Positions 13,847-30,839 of a DNA stretch of 32,685 nt are shown piece after piece (the stretch's first letter is position 1; each line of letters begins with the position of its first letter). The stretch is from contig CAITKI010000025.1 of the NCBI GenBank assembly GCA_903892905.1, positions 1 to 32,685 on the forward strand. Reading direction: 5' to 3'. A program made the position numbers and the translations under genes. The stretch is from an uncultured Microcaldota archaeon (GTDB lineage: Archaea > Micrarchaeota > Micrarchaeia > Anstonellales > Anstonellaceae). The notes beneath the pieces were generated by a model. The model saw nothing but the letters and a program-made list of their open reading frames with translations. It was not told the DNA's origin and did no database searches.

Positions 13847-15052
13847 CTACCTGTACCTAAGAAAAGCACCTATTCCATAGAAGCTGCCGAGGAACTGCGC
13901 GCCCTCCGCAGTGTCCGGCGAGACTACGAAGATGTCGATTCCCTGCGAGTCTGCAAGCGTGATGAGGTCGTCCACGAGGGAGATTTCAGACTCCACCTTC
14001 ACCGTGCCGCCTATTGCCTTTATCTTCTCCTGCAAGTCGAAGGGGTTTTTCGAGGTGACATACTGCGCCTCGCCCGTGGTGGTGTCCACGAGCTTTGCGC
14101 GCTTGTAGGTGATGCCCTCTGAGATGAGAAGCTTGTTCGCCTGCTTGCTCTCAAGCGCGGCTCGCACCTCGTTCTCGCCGTAGGTGGCAAGCCCGCCTGC
14201 CACGACCTCTTTTATGAACCTCTCGATTATCACGCGCTCCTGTATGGCTTGCTGCTCCGAGAGGATGTCGGTGGACTTTGCCATCACCTCGCGCACTCCG
14301 TACTCGTCGGTGTAGCCAGTGTCCACAACCCCAAGGATTTTGATTTGGTAGTTGAACGGCGACATCTTGTAAAAGTCGTCCTTTGCAGGCCCTGGCCCGC
14401 CAATGATGACACCCTTGACGCTGTTGACAAAGTACTTGTCCATGTATTCGCCAATGCGCTTGTAGTAAAGCTCGATGGATTCCTCGATAAGCCTTTCATA
14501 CCTGCGCGCCGACTGCCCGCCTTTCCTTATCTTTGCGTGCGCGGTGGAATTCAGCCTGTGCAATATCCTTGTGTTGGTGCCGCGAAGCTCTGCAAGCGTG
14601 CACTCCCTGCCGTCAAGCACTACAAGCCCGTAGGAGTCCGTGACCTCAAGCGTGCGCTCAAGCGGCTCGAGGAAGAAGCGCGAGTCGCAGCGGTAAATCT
14701 GCACCATGACAGGCTCGGGCGGGTAGATTGTGAAAAGCTCGATGTCCACCTTGGCAGGGTTGTTGGAAACGTTTCCGCAGAAAATGGCAACTCCTGATTG
14801 CGGAGCCACGTTTCCATAGCTTTTGAGGTGGTGCAGAATCCTCTCCAGTGCGTCCACGACGTTCTTCCTCGTGCTTTTGCTCTTGATGTTCGTCGCCTGC
14901 CCGGCCTCTCCGCGCAATTTGTTCGAGGTCTCGTGTATGGCTTGGCCTGAGGGAATGTACACCGAGATGAGCTCGGTGCCGCTTCCTTTCATGGTCTTCA
15001 GGTGCGCGAGCTGCTTTTTCAGCTCGTACTTCAGCTTTGTCTTTTCTTCCAT
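13847..15052 (-). CDS. prf1: Peptide chain release factor aRF1
   Basis: Recognises all three stop codons and releases the finished peptide. A 401-residue protein with all signature motifs: NIKS (55-58) and YRCDSRF (120-126) in the stop-codon-reading N domain, and GGQ (178-180) in the peptidyl-transfer domain. The C-terminal domain with ILGVVDTGYTDEYGVREV and DIFVVSPDTAEGAQF is the aRF3/ABCE1-binding part. GAGGAAG precedes the ATG. It lies between SRP RNA and the carbonic-anhydrase-like gene on the same strand; the gap after the latter is 74 bp. Confidence 0.96.
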   Translation of the reverse strand: MEEKTKLKYELKKQLAHLKTMKGSGTELISVYIPSGQAIHETSNKLRGEAGQATNIKSKSTRKNVVDALERILHHLKSYGNVAPQSGVAIFCGNVSNNPAKVDIELFTIYPPEPVMVQIYRCDSRFFLEPLERTLEVTDSYGLVVLDGRECTLAELRGTNTRILHRLNSTAHAKIRKGGQSARRYERLIEESIELYYKRIGEYMDKYFVNSVKGVIIGGPGPAKDDFYKMSPFNYQIKILGVVDTGYTDEYGVREVMAKSTDILSEQQAIQERVIIERFIKEVVAGGLATYGENEVRAALESKQANKLLISEGITYKRAKLVDTTTGEAQYVTSKNPFDLQEKIKAIGGTVKVESEISLVDDLITLADSQGIDIFVVSPDTAEGAQFLGSFYGIGAFLRYR

Positions 15053-15126: not shown

Positions 15127-16305
15127 CTAGGCCAGGCGCTTTCCATCCTTGTCCATTGCGATGAGCGTGACCTCGAATTCCTTGATGAAATAGCCCATGA
15201 GCGGGTCGTTGAGTATGCGCTCCTGCATCTTCTCGGCCTCCTTCAGGTCGCGGCCCATCACAATCCAGGTGCGCAATCCCAGGTGCTTCACGCCGTAGAA
15301 AAAGCCCGCGTTCTTGTACGGGCCGAACGTCTTGAAGTAGTCGGGCACATTCATGCTACCGATTGCAAATACCTGGCCCACATGGTACTTGTCCATGTTG
15401 AAGAAGTATTTCATGCCGAGCGCGCGCGCCTGCTGGATGGAGGAGTGGTGGAACATCCCCAATGACGGGTTCTGCTTCTGCGTGTGCGAGCCGTCCTGCA
15501 CGTGCCCGCTCTTCCTCACCTTGTCGTACACGAGATCAAGGAAGGTGTTGAGGTGCGTGTTGCCGTCCACCCTGTAGTATTCGTTGGTGTGGTAGTTCTT
15601 CACGCCTGCAGTCAGCGTTATCTTGAGGTTCTCGAAAGTTGAATCCGAGTCCAGCGACTGGCGCAGTATTTTCTTCTGCTCATAGGCGTGCGTGCATATG
15701 TTCACTATGCTTTTCACCCAGTTGCCCGCGATAGTGCCGTTGTGGCCGTACGCGCGCTTCATCAACGTTTCGACGTCCTCCTCGGTCTCTATCCTCAGCT
15801 GGTGGCGCTTGCCCCTCAGGCCGTATTCGAGCACCGCGCGCTTGGCAAGCAGCATGCTTTCCATCTCCAGCGCCACTTCCTGCGCGTGTATCATCCCGCA
15901 GTTGAAAGGCGCGTCCTCCACCTCGATATCATGGTAGCTCCTTGTAGAGTGCAATCTTCCCTTTTTCAGCATCACGTTGCCGTGCGCGGTGAGGTGCACG
16001 AAGATGTCTATGGGGACGCCTGACTTGTAGTATGTGAAGTACTCGCGCATTTTCTCCTGTATGTGGGACTTTATCTCGTCGATGATTCCCGGCGTCACGA
16101 AGGTGCCGGCAACGGACATCCTCTGGAAGTCGATCAGCGTGCCCATTTTGAGCTCCTCCTCGCGCTGCTCGTCAAGCGCAGTATAGAAGGCGGCGGACAC
16201 GTCCCTTGCGTCTGCGCAGCCTACGACGATGTGAAGCTCGATTTTCTTGACTGCTGCCCGCGGCGGCTTGGCAGTGCCATCCGCTTGCGCTGCGTTGTTT
16301 TCCAT
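15127..16305 (-). CDS. Beta-carbonic-anhydrase-like protein, paralogue 1
   Basis: A 392-residue soluble protein with no familiar full-length match. After a hydrophobic strand it has GCADAR (C30, D32, R34), the layout of the beta-carbonic anhydrase C-x-D-x-R zinc motif. RMSVAGTF (62-69) resembles the R-N-A-G-N segment. IFVHLTAHGN (101-110) resembles the strand ending in the zinc histidine. FNCGMIHA (134-141) carries a Cys and His shared with the second paralogue. The usual HxxC is not exact. Further conserved blocks with the paralogue are NEYYRVD and the region around GQVFAIGSMN...FKTFGPY. GGTGA lies 5 bases before the ATG. The gene is divergent from the hydrogenase-like operon. Carbonic anhydrase relationship is inferred from motif order only; activity is unproven. 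Confidence 0.6.
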   Translation of the reverse strand: MENNAAQADGTAKPPRAAVKKIELHIVVGCADARDVSAAFYTALDEQREEELKMGTLIDFQRMSVAGTFVTPGIIDEIKSHIQEKMREYFTYYKSGVPIDIFVHLTAHGNVMLKKGRLHSTRSYHDIEVEDAPFNCGMIHAQEVALEMESMLLAKRAVLEYGLRGKRHQLRIETEEDVETLMKRAYGHNGTIAGNWVKSIVNICTHAYEQKKILRQSLDSDSTFENLKITLTAGVKNYHTNEYYRVDGNTHLNTFLDLVYDKVRKSGHVQDGSHTQKQNPSLGMFHHSSIQQARALGMKYFFNMDKYHVGQVFAIGSMNVPDYFKTFGPYKNAGFFYGVKHLGLRTWIVMGRDLKEAEKMQERILNDPLMGYFIKEFEVTLIAMDKDGKRLA

Positions 16306-16500
16306 TGTCTCACCTTTGTCCGGCCCGAACTGCCCACACGAATGCCATGTATAACCTGAAAAGGATTAAAAATGAAGTGCGCCGGGCGCGCTGCCGAAGC
16401 TTCCCGCAATGCCCGCGTGTTTCCGCCGGCTTAAGCACCATTTATATAGTTTTCTCTGACCATGATAGCTGCACGAGCCTTAGGCAATATGGTGACCAAT
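16306..16500. promoter_or_regulatory. Divergent promoter region between CA-like gene 1 and the membrane-complex operon
   Basis: The plus-strand TATA box TTTATATAG (16441-16449) would start the operon mRNA near 16470, downstream of the first in-frame ATG (16462). The minus-strand TATA-like TTTTTAATCC (16363-16372) serves the CA-like gene with a leader of about 35-40 nt. The two transcripts face away from each other and could share a regulator. Confidence 0.5.
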
Positions 16501-18480
16501 ATGGCGTTGGAATTCCTCATGTTAAATGCACTGCCAATTTCCATCGCGCTTTTCCTGTCCGGAGCAATATTTTCCCTCGCATTCCCTTCCAAGCCCAAAT
16601 TGAGCGCCAAGATAGGGTTTGGATTTGGCCTTCTTGGCAGCCTTTTCGCGCTTGTCGCAGGCGTTTCCGCGTTGCTTGGCATGGGCACAGAGGGCATCAC
16701 ATTGGCAACGCTTCCGTATGTCGGCTCGCTTTCTATAAGCATGGATGCGCTCTCGGGCTTTTTCGTCGCGTTCATTGCGTTCGTGGGCGCCGCCACCTCA
16801 GTATATTCGCTTGGCTACGTCGGGGAATATGCGAAGAAGGGTTACAGCCTCGGGCGCTTCGGCTTCCTCTACAACATCTTTGTCCTGTCCATGATACTGG
16901 TGGTGTCCGCGCAGAATGCGCTATTGTTCCTTGTGCTTTGGGAAATCATGGCGCTAAGCTCGTATTTCCTGGTGACTTATGAGCACAAGGAGGAAAGCGT
17001 GCAGTCCGCTGGCTTCATCTACCTCCTCATCGCCCATGTCGGGGCGGCAGCGCTTGCGCTTATGTTCCTTGCCCTCGCCTCGCAGTCGGGCTCCATGGAC
17101 TTCGCCTCGTTCCACACAGCTTCGTACACGCCGTTCTTGGCAAGCGTGATTTTCATCCTTGCGCTGTTCGGCTTTGGCTCCAAGTGCGGAATCATCCCGC
17201 TCCACGTCTGGCTGCCCCTTGCGCACCCGCAGGCGCCTTCCAACATATCGGCGCTCATGTCAGGCGTCATGCTCAAGACCGCGATATACGGGATTGTGCG
17301 CGTGCTGTTTGATTTCTTAGGCGTTGCCAATGGCGCGCAGCTTTGGTGGGGCTTACTCATACTTGTGCTGGGCATGGTCTCGTCCATCCTGGGCGTGCTC
17401 TACTCGCTTTTGGAGCATGACATCAAGCGGTTGCTTGCGTACCACAGCATAGAGAACATCGGCATCATATTCATCGGCATCGGCGCCGCAGTGCTTTTCT
17501 CCTCGCTGCACCAGCCAGCACTCGCCGCGCTTGCGCTTTTCGCTGCGCTTTACCATACGCTCAACCACGCGCTTTTCAAGAGCCTGCTGTTCTTGGGCGC
17601 AGGCAGCATCATTCACGCCACGCACGAGCGCAACATTGATGAAATGGGCGGCCTGGCAAAATTCATGCCGCTCACCGCAGTGCTGTTCTTCCTGGGCGCG
17701 GCATCGATTGCAGCCATCCCGCCGCTCAACGGGTTTGCAAGCGAGATGCTGACCTTCCAGTCCCTCCTTTCAGGCATTGAGCCAGGGGTGCAGACATTCA
17801 ATTTCACCTCGCTCATGCTTGCAGTCGCCGTGCTCGCCCTTGCACTTACAAGCGCACTCGCTGTCGGCGCATTTGCCAAGGCGTTCGGAATTCCTTTCCT
17901 GGGGCTGCCGCGCTCCAAGCATGCCGAGCACCCGCACGAGTCGCCAAGGACCATGCTCATCGGCATGGCGCTCCTCGCGCTTGGCTGCATTGCTGCAGGA
18001 ATTTTCCCAGGCGCTCTTGCCCAGGCAACATCGGGCGTGCTTGAAAGCCTGCACTTCGCAGGCGCGGCAAGTTCCATCGTGCCTGCTGCAGACGCCCTTC
18101 CCAACGGCGTGATTTTCGTGATTCTCCTGGCAGGCTCTGCACTTGTTTTCTGGCTCCTGGGGCGCTCTGGCAAGAAGAGGCACCAGCATGTCGGCGAGAC
18201 ATGGGGATGCGGCTTCCCGAACGGGACGCCCCACATGCAGTATTCCGCCGCAGGGTTTGCCATGCCTGTCACCAAGGCGCTTGATGCCTGGCTCAACCCC
18301 GTGGAAAGGAAGGAGGCTTACGGGCCTGCCCTGTTCGACAGGTACATCTACGACCCGATTTCAGGGGTTTTCCAGTACATTGCCCCGCACTCGGCGATAT
18401 TCAACACTGGAAGGCTGAATGACTACCTGATGTATTTGATATTGACGCTGGCCATCGTGCTGGCATATGCGTTGCTGTGA
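16501..18480 (+). CDS. HyfB/HycC-like antiporter subunit of a group 4 hydrogenase-related complex
   Basis: About 659 residues with about 15-16 membrane helices, homologous to NuoL/M/N and Mrp antiporter subunits. Ion-path residues are kept: the glutamate in LVLWEIMALSSYF, the lysine in FGSKCGIIPLHVWLP, and the lysine in HDIKRLLAYHSIENIG on the discontinuous helix. The C-terminal extension ETWGCGFPNGTPHMQYSAAGFA is typical of HyfB/HycC. Three ATGs compete (16462, 16489, 16501). The TATA box predicts transcription from about 16470, and GGTGA sits 5 bases before 16501, which I choose. It is the first of five tightly packed genes and overlaps the next by 4 bp. Confidence 0.88.
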   Translation: MALEFLMLNALPISIALFLSGAIFSLAFPSKPKLSAKIGFGFGLLGSLFALVAGVSALLGMGTEGITLATLPYVGSLSISMDALSGFFVAFIAFVGAATSVYSLGYVGEYAKKGYSLGRFGFLYNIFVLSMILVVSAQNALLFLVLWEIMALSSYFLVTYEHKEESVQSAGFIYLLIAHVGAAALALMFLALASQSGSMDFASFHTASYTPFLASVIFILALFGFGSKCGIIPLHVWLPLAHPQAPSNISALMSGVMLKTAIYGIVRVLFDFLGVANGAQLWWGLLILVLGMVSSILGVLYSLLEHDIKRLLAYHSIENIGIIFIGIGAAVLFSSLHQPALAALALFAALYHTLNHALFKSLLFLGAGSIIHATHERNIDEMGGLAKFMPLTAVLFFLGAASIAAIPPLNGFASEMLTFQSLLSGIEPGVQTFNFTSLMLAVAVLALALTSALAVGAFAKAFGIPFLGLPRSKHAEHPHESPRTMLIGMALLALGCIAAGIFPGALAQATSGVLESLHFAGAASSIVPAADALPNGVIFVILLAGSALVFWLLGRSGKKRHQHVGETWGCGFPNGTPHMQYSAAGFAMPVTKALDAWLNPVERKEAYGPALFDRYIYDPISGVFQYIAPHSAIFNTGRLNDYLMYLILTLAIVLAYALL

Positions 18481-20132
18481 TTGATATGGCTGACATCCTA
18501 ACCACATTTGCCCTGGCTGCATTGCAGGTCATTTTCGCGCTTGTAGCAGCCCCGCTCCTGATTGGCATAATGCGCAAGGTGAAGGCGCGCTTCCAAGGGA
18601 GGGTGGGAAGCCCGATCATCCAGCCATACATCGACTTGCAGAAGCTTCTCTCCAAAGGCAGCGCCAGAAGCTCGGTCACCTCGTTCATATTCACCATTGC
18701 CCCAGTGGTGGGCTTTGTGTCGGTCGCGGCAGCGGCATTGGCGCTGCCCATCCTGTCCCCCTCGCCTGTGATAGCCGCGGGCATTGTGGTCTTCATCTAC
18801 CTCTTCGCAATAAGCAGGTTCCTCACGGCGCTTTCTGGCCTGGATGCGGGAAGCGCGTTTGGCGGCATGGGCTCAAGCAGGGAAATGCTTTATTCCGTGC
18901 TCATCGAGCCTGCGCTGTTCGCAGTCATATTGCTTGTGGCAACCGCGGGAAGCCTGAGCATCTCCCCCATTGCAAGCGACTTCGCATCATGGCAGGTGCT
19001 GGTCGCCACCCCTGCATTCTGGCTCATCGCAATCGCGCTTTTCATTGCAATACTTGCAGAGACCGGAAGGCTGCCTTTTGACAACCCTGCGACGCACCTG
19101 GAGCTCACCATGGTGCACGAGGCTATGATACTTGAGAATTCCGGGCCAGGCCTTGCGCTCATCGAGTGGGCAAGCGCAGTCAAGATATTCCTGTTCTTCT
19201 CGCTTGCAGGCATATTGCTCATGCCTGGCGACTTCCAGGCAAGCCTGCTTTGGCCTGCAATCCTTTTGGTGTTTTGCATTGCCTTCGGGGCATTCGTGGC
19301 TGCCGTGGAGAGCATCAGCGTCAAGGTGCGCCTGTTCAAGGTCTCAGAGCTTTTGATATTTTCCCTGCTGCTTGCGCTCATTGCATTCCTTACGCGCATC
19401 TTCGTTGCCAAGCCCGAGGGCGACGGCTGGTTCCAGGCAATCCTGGCGCTTGCCATGCTGCTCTGCGCCATCTATGTGATGTTCAGCCTCACCTTCCGCG
19501 ACCGCATCAAGCTTTACATAATACAGAGCATCTGCCTGGTCGCAATCCTTTTCCAGATAACCCTCACCACGGGCGGGGAAGGCATGAACTACCTGTTCCT
19601 GTTTGCCATCGCCAGCTTCAAGATAATCGTCATCCCGTTCGTGCTGTACCACAGCATGTCATGGGGCATGAAGCTCATGCCGCTGCAGTTCTACCTCAGG
19701 TTCGGCGAGGCCCAGAAAAAATTCAAGCTGGACCTGGAGGCCGACCCGCTTTTCATGAGCGCCCCCATCACCACTTCCCGCGCGCTGATGTACGCAGGCG
19801 TGCTGGTCACGCTGGCATTCGCAGTCTCGTCCGTGCTTGGCGGCACCACCATCATGCTGCCCCTTGCAGTCTCGCTCATACTCATAGGCATGCTCATCAT
19901 CGCGTCCAAGACGCATTTGCTTCTGCAGCTGCTGGGCTTTTTGATGATGGAAAACGGCGTGGTGCTGCTCCCGTACGCACTGCACGTCAACATGCCCTTC
20001 ATCGGGGAAGTGGTCACGCTCTTCGACCTGGTCATCCTGGTGAGGATTACATTGCTATTGTCATTCAAGATGAAGGAGACGCACGGCTCGCTTGACACCA
20101 AGCAGCTCATCGAGCTTGTGGAGAAAAGGTGA
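18477..20132 (+). CDS. HycD(NuoH)-HyfE(NuoK-like) fusion subunit
   Basis: A 551-residue membrane protein. Residues 1 to ~315 are HycD/HyfC (NuoH-like): GRVGSPIIQPYIDLQKLL, then AETGRLPFDNPATHLELTM and VHEAMILENSGPGLALIEWA. This part anchors the peripheral arm to the membrane. From ~320 onwards the chain continues as a HyfE-like protein, ending with a NuoK-like helix set (ASKTHLLLQLLGFLMMENGV, glutamate kept) and VVTLFDLVILV. These are normally two genes. The start is GTG at 18477, overlapping the previous stop by 4 bp (an ATG at 18486 is the alternative). No frameshift is needed and both halves are intact. Confidence 0.87.
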   Translation: MIDMADILTTFALAALQVIFALVAAPLLIGIMRKVKARFQGRVGSPIIQPYIDLQKLLSKGSARSSVTSFIFTIAPVVGFVSVAAAALALPILSPSPVIAAGIVVFIYLFAISRFLTALSGLDAGSAFGGMGSSREMLYSVLIEPALFAVILLVATAGSLSISPIASDFASWQVLVATPAFWLIAIALFIAILAETGRLPFDNPATHLELTMVHEAMILENSGPGLALIEWASAVKIFLFFSLAGILLMPGDFQASLLWPAILLVFCIAFGAFVAAVESISVKVRLFKVSELLIFSLLLALIAFLTRIFVAKPEGDGWFQAILALAMLLCAIYVMFSLTFRDRIKLYIIQSICLVAILFQITLTTGGEGMNYLFLFAIASFKIIVIPFVLYHSMSWGMKLMPLQFYLRFGEAQKKFKLDLEADPLFMSAPITTSRALMYAGVLVTLAFAVSSVLGGTTIMLPLAVSLILIGMLIIASKTHLLLQLLGFLMMENGVVLLPYALHVNMPFIGEVVTLFDLVILVRITLLLSFKMKETHGSLDTKQLIELVEKR

Positions 20133-20136
20133 AAAT

Positions 20137-21600
20137 ATGCTTGAACTCATCATCCTTCCGCCGCTCCTTGCAGGGGCGCTCGCGTTCGTGTTCCACCGCC
20201 AGCCGCGCCAAGTGGAGGCGATTGCATTTCTCGGCGCATGCTTGGCTGCGTTCTTTGCGATATTGTCCGTGGGCGCATTCCTTTCCACCGAAGTCGCTTT
20301 CAGGGATTTCTACGGGCTCCTTTACATGGACGCTGTTTCTGGACTTTTCACCGCGATTACCGCAGTGGTCGCATGCTTCATCTTCCTATACTCTGTCGGC
20401 TACATCCGCCACGAGGTGAAGGAGGGCGTGGTGGAGAAGGACCAGATAGGGCTCTACTACGGCCTGCTTTCCTTTTTCCTTGCGGCAATGCTTGCAGCCA
20501 CTCTGGCAGCGCACCCGGTGGTGATGTGGGCGGCAATCGAGGCCACCACGCTGGCATCTGTTTTCCTGATAAGCTTTTACCAGACCTCAAGCTCGATTGA
20601 GGCTGCCTGGAAATTCTTCATCATCAACTCTGTCGGGATACTGCTCGCGCTTGCAGGAATACTGTTCCTCATGTTCGCCCTCATCCCGGCAGGCGCGACG
20701 TCGGGGGGAGACTGGGACGCGCTCATGGCATTCCACGACGCGCCCAACCTGCTCTTCCTCAAGATTGCATTCGCATTCATACTGGTGGGCTTTGGCACCA
20801 AGGTGGGCCTGGTCCCGCTGCATGTGTGGCTCCCCGATGCGCACAGCCAGGCGCCCACGCCAATCAGCGCCATACTCTCGGGCCTCTTGCTCAATATCGC
20901 ATTCTTCGGCATAGTGCGCTCCTACCAAGTCGTGGCGCCCTATGATTCCATGGTGTCATTCGCATCAGGCCTTCTCATAGGCTTTGGCGTGCTCTCGCTT
21001 GCCATCGGCGCGCTTAGGATATATTTCCAGCACAACATCAAGCGCATGCTTGCATACTCCAGCGTGGAGAACATGGGGATTGTCACGCTCGCATTTGGCC
21101 TGGGCGGCCCGCTTGGCGTTGCCGCTGCGCTGTTCCACATGGCGTCCCACTCGCTTGCCAAGCCCCTTGCATTCTTTGCAAGCGGCATAACCGCGTTCGC
21201 ATTCAACACCAAGGAAATGCCGTACATCAGGGGCGCGGCGCAGGTCATCCCGCTGGTAGCCATACCGTTCGTGTTCATTGCAGCAGGCCTTGCAGGCAGC
21301 CCGCCGTTCGGCACCTTCCTCTCCGAGCTTGGCGTGCTGGCGGTATCACTTTCCAAGGGAGAGATGCTGATTGCAGCCGCGCTGATAATTTTCACCACCA
21401 TTGCGTTTGCCAGCCTGCTTTACAGAGTCTCGGCAATGTGCTTCGGCACTGCGCCATCCGACAGGCATGCATTCTCGCCATCCTTGACCATGATGGTGTC
21501 ATTCGCAGCGCTATTGATTCTCACAATCATCATGGGCATAATGCCCCCATCGCAATTCGTGCACTTATTGGAACTTGCAGTGCACGCCATAGCAGGCTGA
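20137..21600 (+). CDS. HyfF-like antiporter subunit (NuoN/MrpD-like)
   Basis: A 487-residue protein with about 14 membrane helices, the second antiporter-like subunit. Conserved ion-path residues are visible: glutamate in WAAIEATTLASVFL, lysine in GTKVGLVPLHVWLPDAHSQA, and lysine in HNIKRMLAYSSVENMG. ATG 20137 is chosen because AGGTGA lies five bases upstream; an ATG at 20092 in frame would overlap the previous gene by 41 bp. The gap to the previous stop is 4 bp and to the next start 4 bp. Together with the HyfB-like subunit, the complex has two full ion-translocation modules. Confidence 0.88.
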   Translation: MLELIILPPLLAGALAFVFHRQPRQVEAIAFLGACLAAFFAILSVGAFLSTEVAFRDFYGLLYMDAVSGLFTAITAVVACFIFLYSVGYIRHEVKEGVVEKDQIGLYYGLLSFFLAAMLAATLAAHPVVMWAAIEATTLASVFLISFYQTSSSIEAAWKFFIINSVGILLALAGILFLMFALIPAGATSGGDWDALMAFHDAPNLLFLKIAFAFILVGFGTKVGLVPLHVWLPDAHSQAPTPISAILSGLLLNIAFFGIVRSYQVVAPYDSMVSFASGLLIGFGVLSLAIGALRIYFQHNIKRMLAYSSVENMGIVTLAFGLGGPLGVAAALFHMASHSLAKPLAFFASGITAFAFNTKEMPYIRGAAQVIPLVAIPFVFIAAGLAGSPPFGTFLSELGVLAVSLSKGEMLIAAALIIFTTIAFASLLYRVSAMCFGTAPSDRHAFSPSLTMMVSFAALLILTIIMGIMPPSQFVHLLELAVHAIAG

Positions 21601-21604
21601 TAAC

Positions 21605-23176
21605 ATGGACGAACAAACAAAGCAATTCATCCGCTCCGTCGAGTATTCGGTCAGGACAGGATGCCTGGACGATTCTTTCGAGCAGGGCACCAGCCTGTTC
21701 CTTAACGTCCAGCCAAAGCACCTCATGACGATTGGCAACGCCTGCATGATGGAAGGGGCGGTGTTCGATTCGGCATTCGTCTCCTCGGCAGACCCTGCCA
21801 TGGAGGAATTCACGCTTTACTATCTCTTCCGCGCAGCATCCATCGGCCGCATGCTGGTGGTCAGCGCCAGGGGAAGCTCGTTTGACGCGCTTTCAGAAAC
21901 AGTGAACGCGGCGCAATGGGATGAGAGGAAGATACAGGACCTCACGGGCTTGCGCCTGGCAGGCATCCCTGATTCCCGCCCGCTCATATTCCACCCCGAA
22001 AGCGGCTTCCCAGCCGCGCACCCCATTGGTGGCATGCCATACAAGCACCCCAAGGGCACGGAATACCCAATGGAGGGCACTGGCGAGGAAGGGGAATTTG
22101 AGGTTGCAGTGGGGCCTGTGCACGCAGGCATCATCGAGCCAGGCCACTTCAGGTTCCACGTGGTGGGCGAACGGATAAACAAGATGGAAACCAGGATGTT
22201 CTACCTGCACCGCGGAATTGAAAAGAAGGCAGAGGGCCAGCAGGCAGCATCCATACTTCCACTCATCGAGCAGATTTCCGGCGACGAGGCAGTCGCAAAC
22301 TCAGTCGCCTATTGCCAGGCAGTGGAGCAGGCGCTCAAGATGACTGTTCCCAAGCGCGCAGAGGCAATCCGCGCAGTCCTTATGGAGCTGGAAAGGATTT
22401 ACAGCCACCTTGCGGATTTGGGCGGCATGGCAACTGACGTGGGCTTCACGCTGCCGGCTTCGCGCTTTGCAATCTGGCGGGAGGATTTCATGAGGCTCAA
22501 TGCCGCGATTTCCAAGAGCCGCTTCCTGCACAATCAGATAGTGGTGGGCGGCGTGGCTGCTGACATTGACGAGGCCAAGGCTGCAAGGATTGCAGCCTTG
22601 CTCAAAAAAGTGCTCGAGACCCAGACGCTGGAGCGCATGGCGTTTTCCTCCTCCACGTTCCTGGACAGGGTGTTCCAGGCAGGCACGGTGTCAAAGGCGA
22701 TTGCCAAGGACCTCGCGCTTGTCGGCCCGCCTGCCCGCGCATGCGGCATGCAGACGGACTTGCGGCTCGTGCTTCCGTATGGCGCCTATTCCCACATCAC
22801 AGTCAATGAATCGATAGAGAAGGAAGGCGGGGACGTGCTCGCGCGCTTCAGAGTCAAGCTTGCGGAAATCAAGGAGTCCGCCAGGGTTGCCCATTCGCTT
22901 GTGCAGCACCTGCCGCCGGGCGCATTGCGTGAGAAGGTGCCTGCGCAGAAGAAGCATCCGGAAGCTGTCGGCGTGGGCTGGGCAGAGGCTGCGAGGGGCA
23001 GCTGCACTTTCCTTGTGGAGATATTGCCAAGCGGGGCAATCAAGCGCCTTGCATGCCGCACGGCGTCTTTCAGGAACTGGCGCGCGCTTGAGAAGGCGGT
23101 GGAGGGCAACATCGTGCCCGACTTCCCGCTCATCAACAAGAGCTTCAACCTGTCCTATGCAGGCACAGACGTATGA
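21605..23176 (+). CDS. HycE-like (NuoC-NuoD fused) large subunit lacking NiFe ligands
   Basis: A 523-residue protein. Residues 1 to ~145 are the NuoC-like domain (FTLYYLFRAASIGRML...). The rest is the NuoD/hydrogenase large-subunit domain (PVHAGIIEPGHFRFHVVGE, then RMFYLHRGIEKKAEG). In real hydrogenases the L1 motif is ERVCGICxxxH; here it reads EQISGDEAVAN (222-232), so both cysteines are gone. The C-terminal L2 motif DPCxxC is replaced by SFNLSYAGTDV at the very end. NiFe cannot be bound in the usual way. This matches the 'Ehr' (energy-converting hydrogenase-related) group, known to lack these ligands. The fold is intact and no frameshift is present, so the loss is evolutionary rather than a broken gene. 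Confidence 0.9.
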   Translation: MDEQTKQFIRSVEYSVRTGCLDDSFEQGTSLFLNVQPKHLMTIGNACMMEGAVFDSAFVSSADPAMEEFTLYYLFRAASIGRMLVVSARGSSFDALSETVNAAQWDERKIQDLTGLRLAGIPDSRPLIFHPESGFPAAHPIGGMPYKHPKGTEYPMEGTGEEGEFEVAVGPVHAGIIEPGHFRFHVVGERINKMETRMFYLHRGIEKKAEGQQAASILPLIEQISGDEAVANSVAYCQAVEQALKMTVPKRAEAIRAVLMELERIYSHLADLGGMATDVGFTLPASRFAIWREDFMRLNAAISKSRFLHNQIVVGGVAADIDEAKAARIAALLKKVLETQTLERMAFSSSTFLDRVFQAGTVSKAIAKDLALVGPPARACGMQTDLRLVLPYGAYSHITVNESIEKEGGDVLARFRVKLAEIKESARVAHSLVQHLPPGALREKVPAQKKHPEAVGVGWAEAARGSCTFLVEILPSGAIKRLACRTASFRNWRALEKAVEGNIVPDFPLINKSFNLSYAGTDV

Positions 23177-23185
23177 GGGATTACC

Positions 23186-23746
23186 ATGCTGCTTGAAAAT
23201 CTCAGATACATATTCGACCGGCGCTACACGGACAAGGTGTCTGCAAAATCCGACGACCCAGCAATCCGCGAGGTCGCGCAGCTTCTCAAGGGCAGGTCGC
23301 ACTCGCCTTTTGCCCGCTCCATCCATGTGCGCATGGTGGACGCAGGCTCGCCAAACGACGTGGAGCTTGAGGAGGGCCTCATGATGTCGCCGCGCGTGGA
23401 CGCCGAGCGCTTCGGCGTGCATTTCGTGGCCTCCCCCCGCCATGCAGACGTGCTGCTTGTTACAGGCCCCGTGGCGAAGAACATGCACATTGCACTTATC
23501 AAGACGTATGAGGCAATGGCGGAGCCGCGCGCAGTCGTGGCTGCTGGCGATGGCGCCTGCTTTGGATGGGAGGGCAAGGACAACTACGCGCTTGCGGCAG
23601 GCACTGGCAAGGTTGAGGATGTCCTCCACGTCGATGTAAAAGTGCCGGGCAACCCGCCCACGCCATACCAGCTTCTCGCAGGAATACTCAAGGCGGGCTC
23701 AGTGCTTGCGAAAAAAAGCGAGGAGCATCACCACCACAAAAAGTAG
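23186..23746 (+). CDS. HycG/NuoB-like small subunit lacking all [4Fe-4S] ligands
   Basis: A 186-residue protein clearly in the NuoB/HycG family: VDAGSPNDVELEEGL, then DAERFGVHFVASPRHADVLL, then VTGPVAKNM and VDVKVPGNPPTPYQLLAGIL. The four cysteines that hold the proximal cluster (GSCNGC, GDCxC, VPGCPP) are replaced by P56, V59, G123 and N156. The only cysteine left is C125, two positions off. The cluster therefore cannot form in the normal way, although the surrounding motifs are well kept. It ends with a natural run of four histidines. GAGGGA precedes the ATG. Last gene of the operon. Confidence 0.9.
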   Translation: MLLENLRYIFDRRYTDKVSAKSDDPAIREVAQLLKGRSHSPFARSIHVRMVDAGSPNDVELEEGLMMSPRVDAERFGVHFVASPRHADVLLVTGPVAKNMHIALIKTYEAMAEPRAVVAAGDGACFGWEGKDNYALAAGTGKVEDVLHVDVKVPGNPPTPYQLLAGILKAGSVLAKKSEEHHHHKK

Positions 23747-23800: not shown

Positions 23801-25060
23801 TCAGCGGCGCCGTATTGAGCGCGCTATAAACCTGTCCCGGTTAGGGTTGGCAGACGGGAACGACTGGCGCGGGTTGACAACGCCGAACGAGTGGATGTCC
23901 TTCACGTATGTGTCAACCACTTTGCTCACAATCTGGTCCTGCATTATCTTGCCTGAGATGAAATTGATCCCATCCATTTTCCTGCCCACCATGCCAAGCA
24001 CCCCCTGCTCATGGCTGTTCAGGTGCTGCGGCGAAAGGTCATAGAATACCCCGACAAAGGATGGAAGGTCGAATGGCCCGGAATGCATCATTCTCGCAAT
24101 CGAGAAAATCGTGCCTGCCTGGTATTGCACTTTCATCACGTTTGTCGAAAACAGCTTCCTGGCTTCGGTGACATAGGGGTCGTTGATGAGAAGCGCTGGT
24201 GTCGAGAGCTCTGCCTGCACGCCCACCCTTGTCTTGTGGTCTGCGGGCACCTCCGGGCTTTCGCGGATTTTCTTGAATATGGGGCGGAGCACCATGTCTT
24301 CCTGCGTGTCCTTGCAGTCCACCCTGTAGAACTTGTTGTTGGTGTAGTTGAGGACATAGCCGAAAGTCTTCACTTCCGGTATTTCCTTCATGAAAACCTC
24401 ATTCGCCTTCGCCTCTGCCTCGAACAGCCTTATTTGCTCAAGTGGGTGTGTCGTGAGGTCGTGGATGGGCTTTATCCAGGTGAGCAAGTCGCCATCCCAC
24501 TCGCGCGGGGCGCCCCGGTCGCTATAAGTCGCCCTCATGAATTCGCGAAGGTTGTTTTCATTGCTGATGGTTATTTCCTTTCCCCCGGCTATGAATGTAG
24601 GCTGGGTTGAAATCAGGAAGTTCTGGAGATTTGCAGCTGCCACGTCGGCGTGCCCCATTCCGCAGTTGGTGCAGTCCTTGATGACTGCAAGAGATTGAGG
24701 GTCGAACGTATGAGTGCCCTGATATTCCGGCTTGTGCTGCGTGCACGCATGCCCCACGGAATAGAGATGGTATTCGATGGGCACGCCTGCCTGGGCAAAA
24801 TTCGAATATTCGATTTTCTTCTGCATGAAGTGCCACATGAATTCGGCAGAGGCCATGGGCGTCATGAATGTTCCCGGGTCGTTCATCCTGAAAAAGTCGA
24901 CCAGTATGCCCCTGCTTGAAAGCTCGCCCAGAACCTCTTCCTTTGCGCGGTAGTATGCCTCGGTGGTGTTCCTGGAGTCTGAGCAGAATTCCGAGCCGAG
25001 CACGATTATCTTCTCGACCTTGGGGTCGAATTCCCGCACAAATGGGGTGCTTCCAGCCAT
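23801..25060 (-). CDS. Beta-carbonic-anhydrase-like protein, paralogue 2
   Basis: A 419-residue paralogue of the protein at 15127-16305. After the strand KIIVLG it has CSDSR (C26, D28, R30), an exact C-x-D-S-R match to beta-carbonic anhydrases. Then come DFFRMNDPGTFMTP, YSVGHAC (H104, C106) and CTNCGMGH (C130, C133, H137). Shared landmarks with paralogue 1 are the G-x-x-x-DF-x-RM...GTF-x-TP block, GVPI, NCGMxHA, a N(N/E)xxYRVD block and a C-terminal Q-x-G-x-x-F-x-I segment. An upstream in-frame ATG at 25078 exists, but GAGGTTG precedes 25060, which I choose. Zinc-site spacing differs from classical enzymes, so catalytic activity is uncertain. Confidence 0.6.
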   Translation of the reverse strand: MAGSTPFVREFDPKVEKIIVLGSEFCSDSRNTTEAYYRAKEEVLGELSSRGILVDFFRMNDPGTFMTPMASAEFMWHFMQKKIEYSNFAQAGVPIEYHLYSVGHACTQHKPEYQGTHTFDPQSLAVIKDCTNCGMGHADVAAANLQNFLISTQPTFIAGGKEITISNENNLREFMRATYSDRGAPREWDGDLLTWIKPIHDLTTHPLEQIRLFEAEAKANEVFMKEIPEVKTFGYVLNYTNNKFYRVDCKDTQEDMVLRPIFKKIRESPEVPADHKTRVGVQAELSTPALLINDPYVTEARKLFSTNVMKVQYQAGTIFSIARMMHSGPFDLPSFVGVFYDLSPQHLNSHEQGVLGMVGRKMDGINFISGKIMQDQIVSKVVDTYVKDIHSFGVVNPRQSFPSANPNRDRFIARSIRRR

Positions 25061-25110
25061 AGTTTCAACCTCTATCATCTTTGCTAAGCGTTATCCGGTT
25101 TCAATTGTTG

Positions 25111-28163: not shown

Positions 28164-28715
28164 CTACCCCAGCTTGCAGCTCGTGTTGAAGCTTTCATCC
28201 ACCGTTATCTCCGCGTGGTGCAGGAAGAACTTGGTGGACGGCATGCCGCCTTTCACGACTATGTAGGGCGCCTCGCCAAGCTTTTTCTGCACCTGGTCAT
28301 AGGTGAGCGTGGTGCTGCCGTTCGAGGCGGAACTCGCGGATATGCAGCCGCTGCTGTCGCAGGCGTAAGTGGTGACCGTCTTTGAGCCAAACAGCTGCCC
28401 GCCTGCAATGTCCACCCCGCACTGGTATATCTTGCTTGCAGCCTCGGGAGGCGTGTTCCTCATGTCAAAGAACAGGGAAACCGACGGGGCGCCAAGCACC
28501 CTGCCCACGAACGTGTCCATGTCGGAGGGCGTGTCGGAAGGAGGCGCAAGGAACACCACGTATGCCACAAGCGCGATTGCCGCAACCGCCAGCAGGGCAA
28601 CCCCTGCCTGCCTGTCGCGCTCGGAGAGCTTGATGGATGGGAAGCCCCCCTTGCCTGCCGGAGAGGATGCTGCCTTCTTTTCAATAGGTGAAACTTTCTT
28701 GTTTTCGTTCTTCAT
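28164..28715 (-). CDS. Single-pass membrane-anchored protein of unknown function
   Basis: A 183-residue protein. A basic, polar N-terminus (~40 residues) precedes one transmembrane helix (about 39-57) and an external domain with four cysteines (CGVDIAGG, ACDSSGC, TSCKLG). The external domain resembles, nearly without gaps, the C-terminal domain of the 701-residue protein encoded just upstream. Compare FVGRVLGAPSVSLFFD here with FMGTVTASSKVAVIVE there, and the P-x-E...C...A..Q spacing after it. GAGGT lies 8 bases before the ATG. The gap to the upstream gene is 18 bp, so the two are co-transcribed and probably form a surface complex. Function unknown. Confidence 0.72.
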   Translation of the reverse strand: MKNENKKVSPIEKKAASSPAGKGGFPSIKLSERDRQAGVALLAVAAIALVAYVVFLAPPSDTPSDMDTFVGRVLGAPSVSLFFDMRNTPPEAASKIYQCGVDIAGGQLFGSKTVTTYACDSSGCISASSASNGSTTLTYDQVQKKLGEAPYIVVKGGMPSTKFFLHHAEITVDESFNTSCKLG

Positions 28716-28733
28716 CGAAATAACCTCGCACCA

Positions 28734-30839
28734 TCAGCCAAGCACGTTCGCTATGTCGCACATCGGCTTTTTGCTGTAGTAGGCATCGTTGCCCTTCACT
28801 ATGGCCTGCTTGGTCACCACTGTTGTGAATGCGGGCGCGACGTTGTCCTTTGCGTACTGCAAGTCGAAAATTGGCACATCAGGGATGTTGTCAAGGCATG
28901 TGGATGATGAAAGCCCGGTTGTCACGTCGTAAGTGGCGTTGGCCGAGCTTGCCGTGGAATTCTTGGGGGCATACCTTGTGCACGTATTCCCGTTTATGTA
29001 GTATTTCACGGTCGTCTTGTTCATCATGCGGGCCTGCAATGCCACCTGGTCCGCGCATGCGTGCATGCCTGCGATTGTCTCGCTTGGCGCAGCGCCCTCC
29101 TCGACGATCACAGCCACCTTGGAAGATGCCGTCACCGTCCCCATGAACTCGGTGAACGAGGTGAACTTCTCCGTGCTCATCACGATTGAATAGAAGCCAA
29201 CCGAGCCAACCAGGAGCAGGAAGGTGAATCCCAAAAGCGAAAGCACCCAGCCGGAAACCATCAGCTTGCTTCTGAAGAAATGCCTGAAGCGGTAGAAGAC
29301 AACTGCCGAGATTATCACCGCGATTGCAAGCACCGAAAGGTCGACTGCCGCCACCACGATGGGCGGCACGAATTTCGCAAAGCTCTGCCTGGTCTTGAAC
29401 GAGACTGGTGTTATGCTGCTTGCAACTGACATCGCCCCGTCCACAGTCGCGCGCGAGAACGAGTTCCCGAAGTCGAACACGGACTCCTGCGCGCTTTGCG
29501 ATGCCGTGACATAGGTCTGCGCAGAGGATGACAGGTTCTCGAACTTGGCTGCAAGCGAGATGTACTGCGCCGAGGTCATGGGCGGCGCGAGCTGCGCGTT
29601 GAGCTTGTTGTCCTGGTCGGCAAGCGCATTGTAGGAGTCGACGGACGCTGTTGAAAGCCTGTTCACGCGCCACTGCGCCTGGAGAAGGCTGTCCCCTGCA
29701 TTGTCCTGGGCGTTCACTGCAATCTTGTATGCGGATGTTGAATTGTTCAGCATCCCGGCAAGCATCCTGCCCGATGTTTCATACGATGAGAGCGACGAGT
29801 CAAAGCCGGCAAAGTCGCGCTTGGAAATGTCCATCTCAAGCTCGTCGCCCTTGGCGATGAAGTTGTCCGCAACCGATACGAAATTCACATCGGATACGAG
29901 CGCCTTTGCCTCCACTGCCTGCGCCTTCAGGCCGCCGTATTTCGCCTTGGCGGAATCGTACTGGGGCGAGAGTATGGCTGCCTTTTCCTCGCCTGCGAGG
30001 AAGTTCATCCTGTCCTGCGTTGAAATCACGAGCTTGCTAATCGTTGTGTCAAGCAGCACCAATGGCGCAACCTTGGTCTTGAGCGTTGCCACCTCTGCCC
30101 TGCCAGCAGTAAGCGAGGCATAGTCGAAATGCGCCTCAGGGCACCTGCCCAGGCAATCCAGGCACGAAGTCGTCTCCGGGAAGCGGAGCTTGCTCTGCGC
30201 CACCTCGTCAGCCGCTGTTTTCATGGCTGCAAATGCCTCGTCCATGGAATTGAGCGAGGTCACCGCTGTTGCTGTTGAGATTGACGAGTACGCCTGCTGG
30301 AACTTGGCATCGGCAGCATTGAGCTTGTCTATGCTTTTCTTGTAGGCAAGGATGTGCGTGGCAAGCAAGTCGGCGATGCAGCCGTCCGCGCCTGAGATTG
30401 TGCATATGAGCGATGCTGTCTGCATGCAGGAGGAGAGGTCGTTGCAGGGCTTGTAGGAAAGGAATGTGCCGCTTGTATAGCACGTCTGCTCAGCAGGCCC
30501 GTACTTTGTCTGGTAGTTCCTGCTTGCATTGAACAGGTCGTGGTATTTCTTCAGGTCCGCCAGGTCGGATGATGACAGGTAGTACGTGTCGGTGTAGTAT
30601 TTTGTGAGAAGGGAGGCTATCTGCGCCTTTTCCGTGACAATCTGCCCGTTTTGCACAAGCAGTGTTTCCACGCCATTGACCTTGTAAAGCGTGGCAGTGC
30701 CGTTTGCGGATGCAAAGCTCGCCGTTGTGACGGATGATGCAGTCTCGCCCGAATAGAGATAGGGCGCCATGGAAAAATCGGCGAATGAATACGAGCAGAA
30801 GAGCACCAGGACGGCAAATATGGCGGAAATGAACCTCAT
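28734..30839 (-). CDS. Large surface protein with signal peptide, helical ectodomain and two transmembrane helices
   Basis: A 701-residue protein. The signal peptide (about 1-20) precedes a long helical, alanine/serine-rich ectodomain with a cysteine-rich patch (CYTSG, PCNDLSSCMQ, CTISGADGC, then SCLDCLGRCPE near 215-235). Two transmembrane segments lie near 494-513 and 528-550, and a C-terminal external domain of about 145 residues ends CDIANVLG. That last domain resembles the ectodomain of the following 183-residue gene. I do not recognise the family. The disulfide-rich, coiled-coil-like layout suggests a structural or adhesive surface role, but this is inference. A GGGGGT stretch precedes the ATG, and the mRNA has a ~105-nt leader with hairpins. 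Confidence 0.75.
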   Translation of the reverse strand: MRFISAIFAVLVLFCSYSFADFSMAPYLYSGETASSVTTASFASANGTATLYKVNGVETLLVQNGQIVTEKAQIASLLTKYYTDTYYLSSSDLADLKKYHDLFNASRNYQTKYGPAEQTCYTSGTFLSYKPCNDLSSCMQTASLICTISGADGCIADLLATHILAYKKSIDKLNAADAKFQQAYSSISTATAVTSLNSMDEAFAAMKTAADEVAQSKLRFPETTSCLDCLGRCPEAHFDYASLTAGRAEVATLKTKVAPLVLLDTTISKLVISTQDRMNFLAGEEKAAILSPQYDSAKAKYGGLKAQAVEAKALVSDVNFVSVADNFIAKGDELEMDISKRDFAGFDSSLSSYETSGRMLAGMLNNSTSAYKIAVNAQDNAGDSLLQAQWRVNRLSTASVDSYNALADQDNKLNAQLAPPMTSAQYISLAAKFENLSSSAQTYVTASQSAQESVFDFGNSFSRATVDGAMSVASSITPVSFKTRQSFAKFVPPIVVAAVDLSVLAIAVIISAVVFYRFRHFFRSKLMVSGWVLSLLGFTFLLLVGSVGFYSIVMSTEKFTSFTEFMGTVTASSKVAVIVEEGAAPSETIAGMHACADQVALQARMMNKTTVKYYINGNTCTRYAPKNSTASSANATYDVTTGLSSSTCLDNIPDVPIFDLQYAKDNVAPAFTTVVTKQAIVKGNDAYYSKKPMCDIANVLG

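Follow-up and report, generated by a model that had tools for sequence, protein, structure and literature searches.

An archaeal clade of Ehr-type complexes that has lost both sets of metal ligands, and its possible link to CO2/bicarbonate chemistry

The window, i.e. the whole 32,685-nucleotide (32.7-kb) stretch of micrarchaeal DNA that we analysed, harbours a tight operon of five genes on the forward strand (16462-23746), with intergenic gaps of -4, 4, 4 and 9 bp. Pfam and NCBIfam matches give the gene order HyfB, HyfC-E, HyfF, HyfG and HyfI. The first gene (16462..18480, + strand) codes for a HyfB/NuoL-like antiporter subunit of 672 residues (PF00361, E 2e-51; NF005086, hydrogenase 4 subunit B, 666.9 bits). 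The original prediction had placed the operon at 16501-23746; its end and gene content were correct, and 16501 is an alternative in-frame ATG of a gene that opens at 16462. The second gene (18477..20132, +) encodes a 551-residue protein in which a NuoH-like HyfC is fused to a HyfE-like C-terminus (PF00146, E 2e-36; PF00420, E 1e-4). It is followed by the gene of a HyfF/NuoM-like antiporter subunit (20137..21600, +; PF00361, E 2e-48), whose ORF opens at 20092 and has its ATG at 20137. The last two genes code for a HyfG/HycE-like large subunit with a fused 30-kDa-like N-terminus and no NiFe ligands (21605..23176, +; PF00346, E 2e-35, along with matches to PF00374 and PF00329) and for a HyfI/HycG-like small subunit with no [4Fe-4S] ligands (23186..23746, +; PF01058, E 1e-18). 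The best PDB matches of these two proteins are HycE of the Escherichia coli formate hydrogenlyase (FHL; 8e-56) and Pyrococcus MbhJ (3e-22), respectively. The domain and PDB matches bear out the predicted five-gene complex related to group 4 hydrogenases and complex I. No second HyfI/NuoB homologue was found in the genome of the window, a fragmented draft. A 76% match was found in a same-genus relative (G003, locus L024).

We scored the ligand positions by alignment to E. coli HycE/HyfG and HycG/HyfI and to NuoB/NuoCD. All eight cysteine ligand positions, four for NiFe and four for the [4Fe-4S] cluster, are replaced in the operon. In alignments of the large subunit with HycE and relatives, QISGDE stands for RVCGIC, with S225 and E228 at the cysteine positions (S225-G226-D227-E228, 22277..22288, +), and NLSYAG for DPCYSC, with S517 and G520 at the cysteine positions of the D-P-C-x-x-C motif (N515-L-S-Y-A-G520, 23147..23164, +). 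In the small subunit, CNGC is replaced by PNDV (P56-N-D-V59, 23351..23362, +), GAC by GDG (G123 for the third cluster cysteine, 23552..23554, +, aligned with relatives) and PGCPP by PGNPP (N156 for the fourth, 23651..23653, +). The substitutions read beforehand from the sequence, SGDE for CGIC, NLSYAG for DPCxxC, and Pro, Val, Gly and Asn at the four [4Fe-4S] positions, are thus those found in the alignments. Two residues past the position of the lost third ligand there is a cysteine, C125, which a gap in one local alignment can bring into register with that ligand. We rejected C125 as a retained third ligand, because it corresponds to the '+2' residue found in cluster-bearing Ehr complexes as well (GACAC), and because two relatives (L136 and L138) have a valine there. 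No ferredoxin motif (CxxCxxCxxxC) is present in any frame of the window, in keeping with the predicted lack of a NuoI/HycF gene. With eight ligands gone and no such motif, the claim that no electron path is left holds for the window.

The complex is neither a hydrogenase nor complex I. Its large subunit lacks the two CxxC motifs of group 4 NiFe hydrogenases, and its NuoB-like subunit lacks the N2 cluster cysteines of respiratory complex I. It shares homology across all subunits with E. coli hydrogenase-4 and FHL (HyfBCEFGI, HycCDEG; PDB 7z0s); unlike them, the micrarchaeal complex has no NiFe site, no proximal FeS cluster, no HycB/HycF ferredoxin subunits and no HypD in the genome. Respiratory complex I (NuoB/NuoCD/NuoH/L/M) shares the fold family of all subunits and the proton-path Glu and Lys residues, but the operon has no N2 cluster ligands, no NuoI and no NADH module. 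By gene set, ligand loss and phylogeny, the complex is a member of the Ehr group. HyfB/C/E/F/G/I-type genes are gathered in one operon, and the large subunit is devoid of the NiFe-binding CxxC pairs, a lack that the original prediction had rightly ascribed to Ehr and that is their published mark (PMC6349859, PMC10284858, PMC10432482, PMC7304191). In a large-subunit tree built with the ligand columns removed, the protein nests with Ehr, with a 100/100 split from HycE/HyfG. Ehr complexes, including ehrABCDLS of Methanospirillum hungatei, have the same gene set and order, carry SGDx and NLSYxG at the NiFe sites and are the nearest relatives in trees. The complex differs from them by the loss of the last cluster: the four proximal [4Fe-4S] cysteines of the small subunit, which are usual in Ehr and lie outside the published definition, are all missing (0/4 kept). 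A further difference is the HyfC-HyfE fusion, found in 14/14 micrarchaeal operons, in contrast with two separate genes elsewhere.

We searched for relatives by scanning 85,000 species genomes with an alignment query, which found many of them; a scan with the single HyfG protein as query gave no match. All relatives read lack the NiFe ligands. The same operon was identified in 14 micrarchaeal genomes of several families, and all eight ligands are gone in 14/14; in two additional genomes (G005 and G006), its 5' part lies at contig ends. The original prediction had proposed to look for the cysteines in sister genomes; all operon-bearing sisters lack the same ones. Outside Micrarchaeota, 61 of 70 small subunits have all four cluster cysteines, and seven carry D, A/T, D and N instead. 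The latter come from Methanosarcina, two Methanoregula, Bathyarchaeota, a Dehalococcoidales contig, a euryarchaeote and Altiarchaeales. The remaining two are a Rokuibacteriota sequence that lacks one cysteine and one of an unplaced bacterium (L053) that lacks three. Thus, 61 of the 63 Ehr small subunits outside the cysteine-less clade keep the four cysteines, and the archaeal clade keeps none. The Rokuibacteriota protein (L074:3367-3873) reads P, C, C, C; that of the unplaced bacterium (L053:2397-2693 and upstream) reads T, C, D, D and appears to have lost part of its ligand set independently. The Dehalococcoidales-binned contig (L035) carries an archaeal-type cysteine-less Ehr, by lateral transfer or misbinning.

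In a class-wide sample around Methanoregula, the cysteine-less type is present in 39/199 genomes, and the Methanomicrobia-class loci read have D-A/T-D/E-N in 37/37 cases. In the class around Methanosarcina it occurs in 22/238 genomes, all 22 of which were read and are cysteine-less (22/22); this class has a second, cleanly separate set with CCCC in 7/7 loci read. The cysteine-less methanogen loci of the two classes total 59. No common substitute ligand set links the subclades (P/S, V, G, N versus D, A/T, D/E, N). In the large-subunit tree, a single clade (bootstrap 99, SH-aLRT 96) unites the Micrarchaeota with the remaining archaeal cysteine-less members, among them many Methanomicrobia and Methanosarcinia, Bathyarchaeota and Altiarchaeales. 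This clade lies near the cluster-bearing Ehr found in Nitrososphaerota and Bacillota, whereas L053 branches elsewhere. Given this topology, a single early loss of the cluster in the archaeal clade, with a further partial loss in L053, is the simplest explanation. The loss of NiFe ligands in M. hungatei, Methanosarcina acetivorans and Methanosarcina mazei was already noted in 2009 (PMC2686161). The new finding is the additional loss of the small-subunit cluster in one well-supported clade of archaea. The literature searched, to which the founding Ehr paper (Marreiros et al. 2013) did not belong, yielded no report of this loss or of a link to carbonic anhydrases (CA). The non-redox role that had been proposed from the window is supported, with the addition that the loss is not peculiar to one genome and marks an archaeal Ehr clade.

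The five genes are under purifying selection, with dN/dS values of 0.07-0.17 when the window is compared with its nearest relative, as expected of a complex selected for another job. The antiporter modules are also intact, as had been predicted. We checked NuoL-, NuoM- and NuoH-type positions, leaving out HyfE because its mapping onto NuoK was unreliable. E161, K241, K373 and E428 of HyfB are kept in all relatives, and E150, K237 and E412 of HyfF (numbered from 20092) are kept in Micrarchaeota. With few exceptions, the proton-path Glu and Lys residues of NuoL, NuoM and NuoH are conserved across Micrarchaeota, the remaining archaeal members and the other Ehr complexes. HypD, of the Hyp maturation system, is absent from 14/14 micrarchaeal genomes and present in the 4/4 non-micrarchaeal genomes tested. 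Catalytic subunits of an A-type ATPase (ATP synthase) are encoded in 14/14 micrarchaeal genomes. The lack of an electron path, purifying selection and intact antiporter modules together argue for a non-redox job.

The operon is flanked on both sides by CA-like genes, which had gone unreported in the original prediction and point to CO2/bicarbonate chemistry. The upstream one, divergently transcribed (15127..16305, - strand), codes for a beta-CA-like protein of 392 residues with two domains and the residues C30-x-D-x-R34, H108 and C136. Its downstream counterpart (23801..25078, -) codes for another protein of this family, which is more divergent and has 425 residues and CSDSR, GHAC and NCGM motifs. 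The two proteins are 27% identical and share the same invariant residues. In eight aligned members of their family, called family A, C-x-D-x-R, H and N-C-G-M are invariant, which is the zinc pattern of beta-CAs. Neither protein has a Pfam match, the cut-off of PF00484 (beta-CA) being missed, nor did the flanking proteins match the DabA family PF10070. By contrast, a different CA-like protein adjoining a related operon (L015:11278-12558) passes the PF00484 cut-off. A sequence-profile comparison gave no significant match between family A and methanogen beta-CAs, with a better result for a second family (family B), and an hmmsearch of family A against the PDB returned no CA. For family B, the AlphaFold model was of poor quality (pLDDT 53), and the fold search was run on the family A model alone. 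For the 15127-16305 product (pLDDT 80.5), the top Foldseek match is 1ddz, the two-domain beta-CA of Porphyridium (E 5e-7, probability 1.0), with low TM-scores (0.36); 1ddz is the only strong PDB match of this model, and other beta-CAs come next. As the profile searches gave no significant CA match, the CA assignment of family A is based on its motif, its fold and the genomic context, and the flanking proteins are predicted to be divergent two-domain beta-CA-like proteins.

A CA or CA-like gene adjoins 11 of the 14 micrarchaeal operons; these genes code for members of the window family and of a second family, for a PF00484 protein and for two further CA-like proteins. In G048, a PF00484 CA gene lies 12 bp downstream of the operon on the same strand. 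In L136 and L138, which belong to another micrarchaeal family, CA-like genes follow directly, at 17 and 44 bp, that of L138 having a degenerate motif and no Pfam match. Among methanogens, an ordinary beta-CA is encoded at most 1.35 kb from the complex in 16/39 genomes, in at least three arrangements. None was found adjacent in the other 23/39, nor in those loci that were read from Methanosarcina, Bathyarchaeota and Altiarchaeales, and complex-bearing methanogens usually have an ordinary CA as well. No CA was found in the retrieved flanks of the 71 other Ehr loci (0/71), 44 of which had at least 1.5 kb retrieved on both sides. The linked CA genes are mostly on the strand opposite to the operon, and no fusion of a CA with an Ehr subunit was seen.

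In two micrarchaeal families, a strong ordinary beta-CA is present in 0/12 genomes with the complex versus 43/51 without it (0/8 versus 11/12 in the window's own family), and family A is found in 8/14 complex-bearing genomes versus 17/301 overall, with Fisher 5e-8 and p 4e-8, respectively, in tests that treat genomes as independent and ignore shared ancestry. This distribution resembles a replacement of the free CA by the divergent CA-like proteins in genomes with the complex. Such a replacement is what a DabAB-like system needs, since free CA would short-circuit the accumulated bicarbonate, an established principle of CO2-concentrating mechanisms. Nevertheless, in Micrarchaeota devoid of the complex, the same genomic place next to aRF1 is occupied by an ordinary CA gene, so the complex may have landed beside a CA gene. 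The micrarchaeal CA linkage is thus partly a matter of synteny and shared ancestry. The proximity of aRF1 (13847-15052 in the window; relatives L220-L235) to a CA gene is seen in many genomes of the order, whether or not the Ehr operon is nearby. Furthermore, in some Micrarchaeota without the complex (L222, L223, L224, L225 and L236), beta-CA genes adjoin genes for 400-residue CA-like proteins of family B.

The loss of the metal sites, the conservation of the ion channels and the CA-type neighbours together suggest that the probable role of the complex is to move ions in a process other than redox chemistry, e.g. one related to CO2/bicarbonate. The reading we favour, although we put it at slightly below an even chance, is that of a redox-free, ion-translocating machine that belongs to the Ehr branch within the complex I superfamily and is probably coupled, via the adjacent CA-type protein, to the chemistry of CO2/HCO3-. 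Its membrane arm (HyfB, HyfF and HyfC-E) would conduct protons or Na+ through the conserved Glu/Lys relays. HyfG and HyfI, the former catalytic module without NiFe and the proximal [4Fe-4S] cluster, may serve as a connector or proton relay that couples the membrane arm to a cytoplasmic partner. The likeliest partner would be the CA-type protein encoded alongside, i.e. the 15127-16305 and 23801-25078 products in the window and an ordinary beta-CA in some methanogens. Ion flow would be coupled to CO2 hydration or HCO3- release, as in DabAB with its NuoL-like and beta-CA-like subunits; the physical association with the CA, the direction of coupling and the identity of the ion are what we infer. 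The original prediction of ion transport driven by conformational change agrees with this reading as to non-redox ion transport, and it left the driving reaction unnamed.

The analogy with the DabAB/DAB2 vectorial CA lies in the combination of a NuoL-like channel with a two-domain beta-CA-like protein harbouring C-x-D-x-R, H and C (PMC13144422). DabA2 has two beta-CA-like domains with C351, D353, R355, H524 and C539 and a NuoL-like partner; it is driven by the pmf and active only with a membrane potential (PMC13144422). The neighbour encoded here has the corresponding invariant residues and predicted fold. In contrast with DabAB, there is no PF10070 protein, and the putative assembly would combine two antiporters with NuoH-, NuoD- and NuoB-like subunits. 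We suggest that it may work like DabAB, and do not claim membership of that family. The more specific proposal of an archaeal DabAB analogue on an Ehr chassis, which would link ion translocation to CO2 hydration/HCO3- dehydration via a divergent beta-CA in Micrarchaeota and cultured methanogens, is somewhat more tentative.

The main rival is a plain cation/proton antiporter or pH-homeostasis device, redox-free and Mrp-like, with no coupling to CA, the CA genes being nearby by ancestry or their products serving as a proton source. Mrp antiporters likewise have NuoL/M-like ion modules and no redox function. The intact antiporter residues, the CA-aRF1 synteny in genomes without the complex and the many methanogen loci with no adjacent CA all fit such a device, and some host organisms inhabit acidic peat. 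However, Mrp has no NuoD-, NuoB- or NuoH-like subunits, whereas HyfG and HyfI are both kept under selection here; moreover, the ordinary CA is replaced in complex-bearing genomes, and CA genes have been placed near the complex repeatedly in differing arrangements. We regard this explanation as rather unlikely. It is improbable that the complex is a sensor or regulator of CO2/HCO3- or pH, in which the CA-like protein would gate a channel with no energy coupling. The divergent CA-like proteins do keep the metal triad in changed surroundings, as a sensor might, but two antiporters and a NuoH-like subunit make a large machine for that purpose, and no regulatory domain was seen.

Still less probable is that electrons flow nevertheless, via a non-canonical cofactor or a missing redox partner protein. 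In favour of this possibility, Geobacter has raised levels of Ehr when grown on formate (PMC7894505), formate dehydrogenase genes are found close to some Methanospirillum-type loci, as we observed and as was published (PMC11346949), and the genome paper on M. hungatei gives Ehr a role in ferredoxin reduction (PMC4704411). Against it, the eight ligands are gone with no common substitute set, C125 is dispensable, the window has no Fer4 motif, and a search for a redox neighbour conserved across loci found none. As for sequencing error or recent decay, the draft status of the genome could have raised that suspicion, but the ligands are equally absent from 14 micrarchaeal genomes and 59 methanogen loci and the dN/dS values are low; the relatives refute this explanation, to which we assign a negligible probability.

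If the favoured reading of a redox-free, CA-coupled machine is correct, the complex is a natural relative of complex I with its ion-pumping half and connecting arm intact and zero redox centres. The question of what drives a redox-free machine would then become directly testable. Methanosarcina acetivorans is a genetically tractable host. A homologous operon is present in this organism (PMC2686161). The published annotations of such operons would need correction. We take the G397 locus to be the operon of M. hungatei JF-1. If so, a function of the Methanospirillum operon as a ferredoxin reducer (PMC4704411) or an H2-evolving hydrogenase (PMC11346949) does not fit the residues.

Several other features were observed around these loci. 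In some cysteine-less methanogen operons (L153, L158, L159, L160 and L029), an acetyltransferase-like gene lies directly upstream, at 0-122 bp. The window contains an envelope-type gene pair (28164-30839; 183 and 701 residues), and similar pairs are found near CA or aRF1 genes in several micrarchaeal relatives. Lastly, an Orc1/Cdc6-like gene of G053 (L013:9152-11428) carries an apparent intein at its P-loop (GKTG-CVSGSTLV...) and is uninterrupted in L225 and L236.
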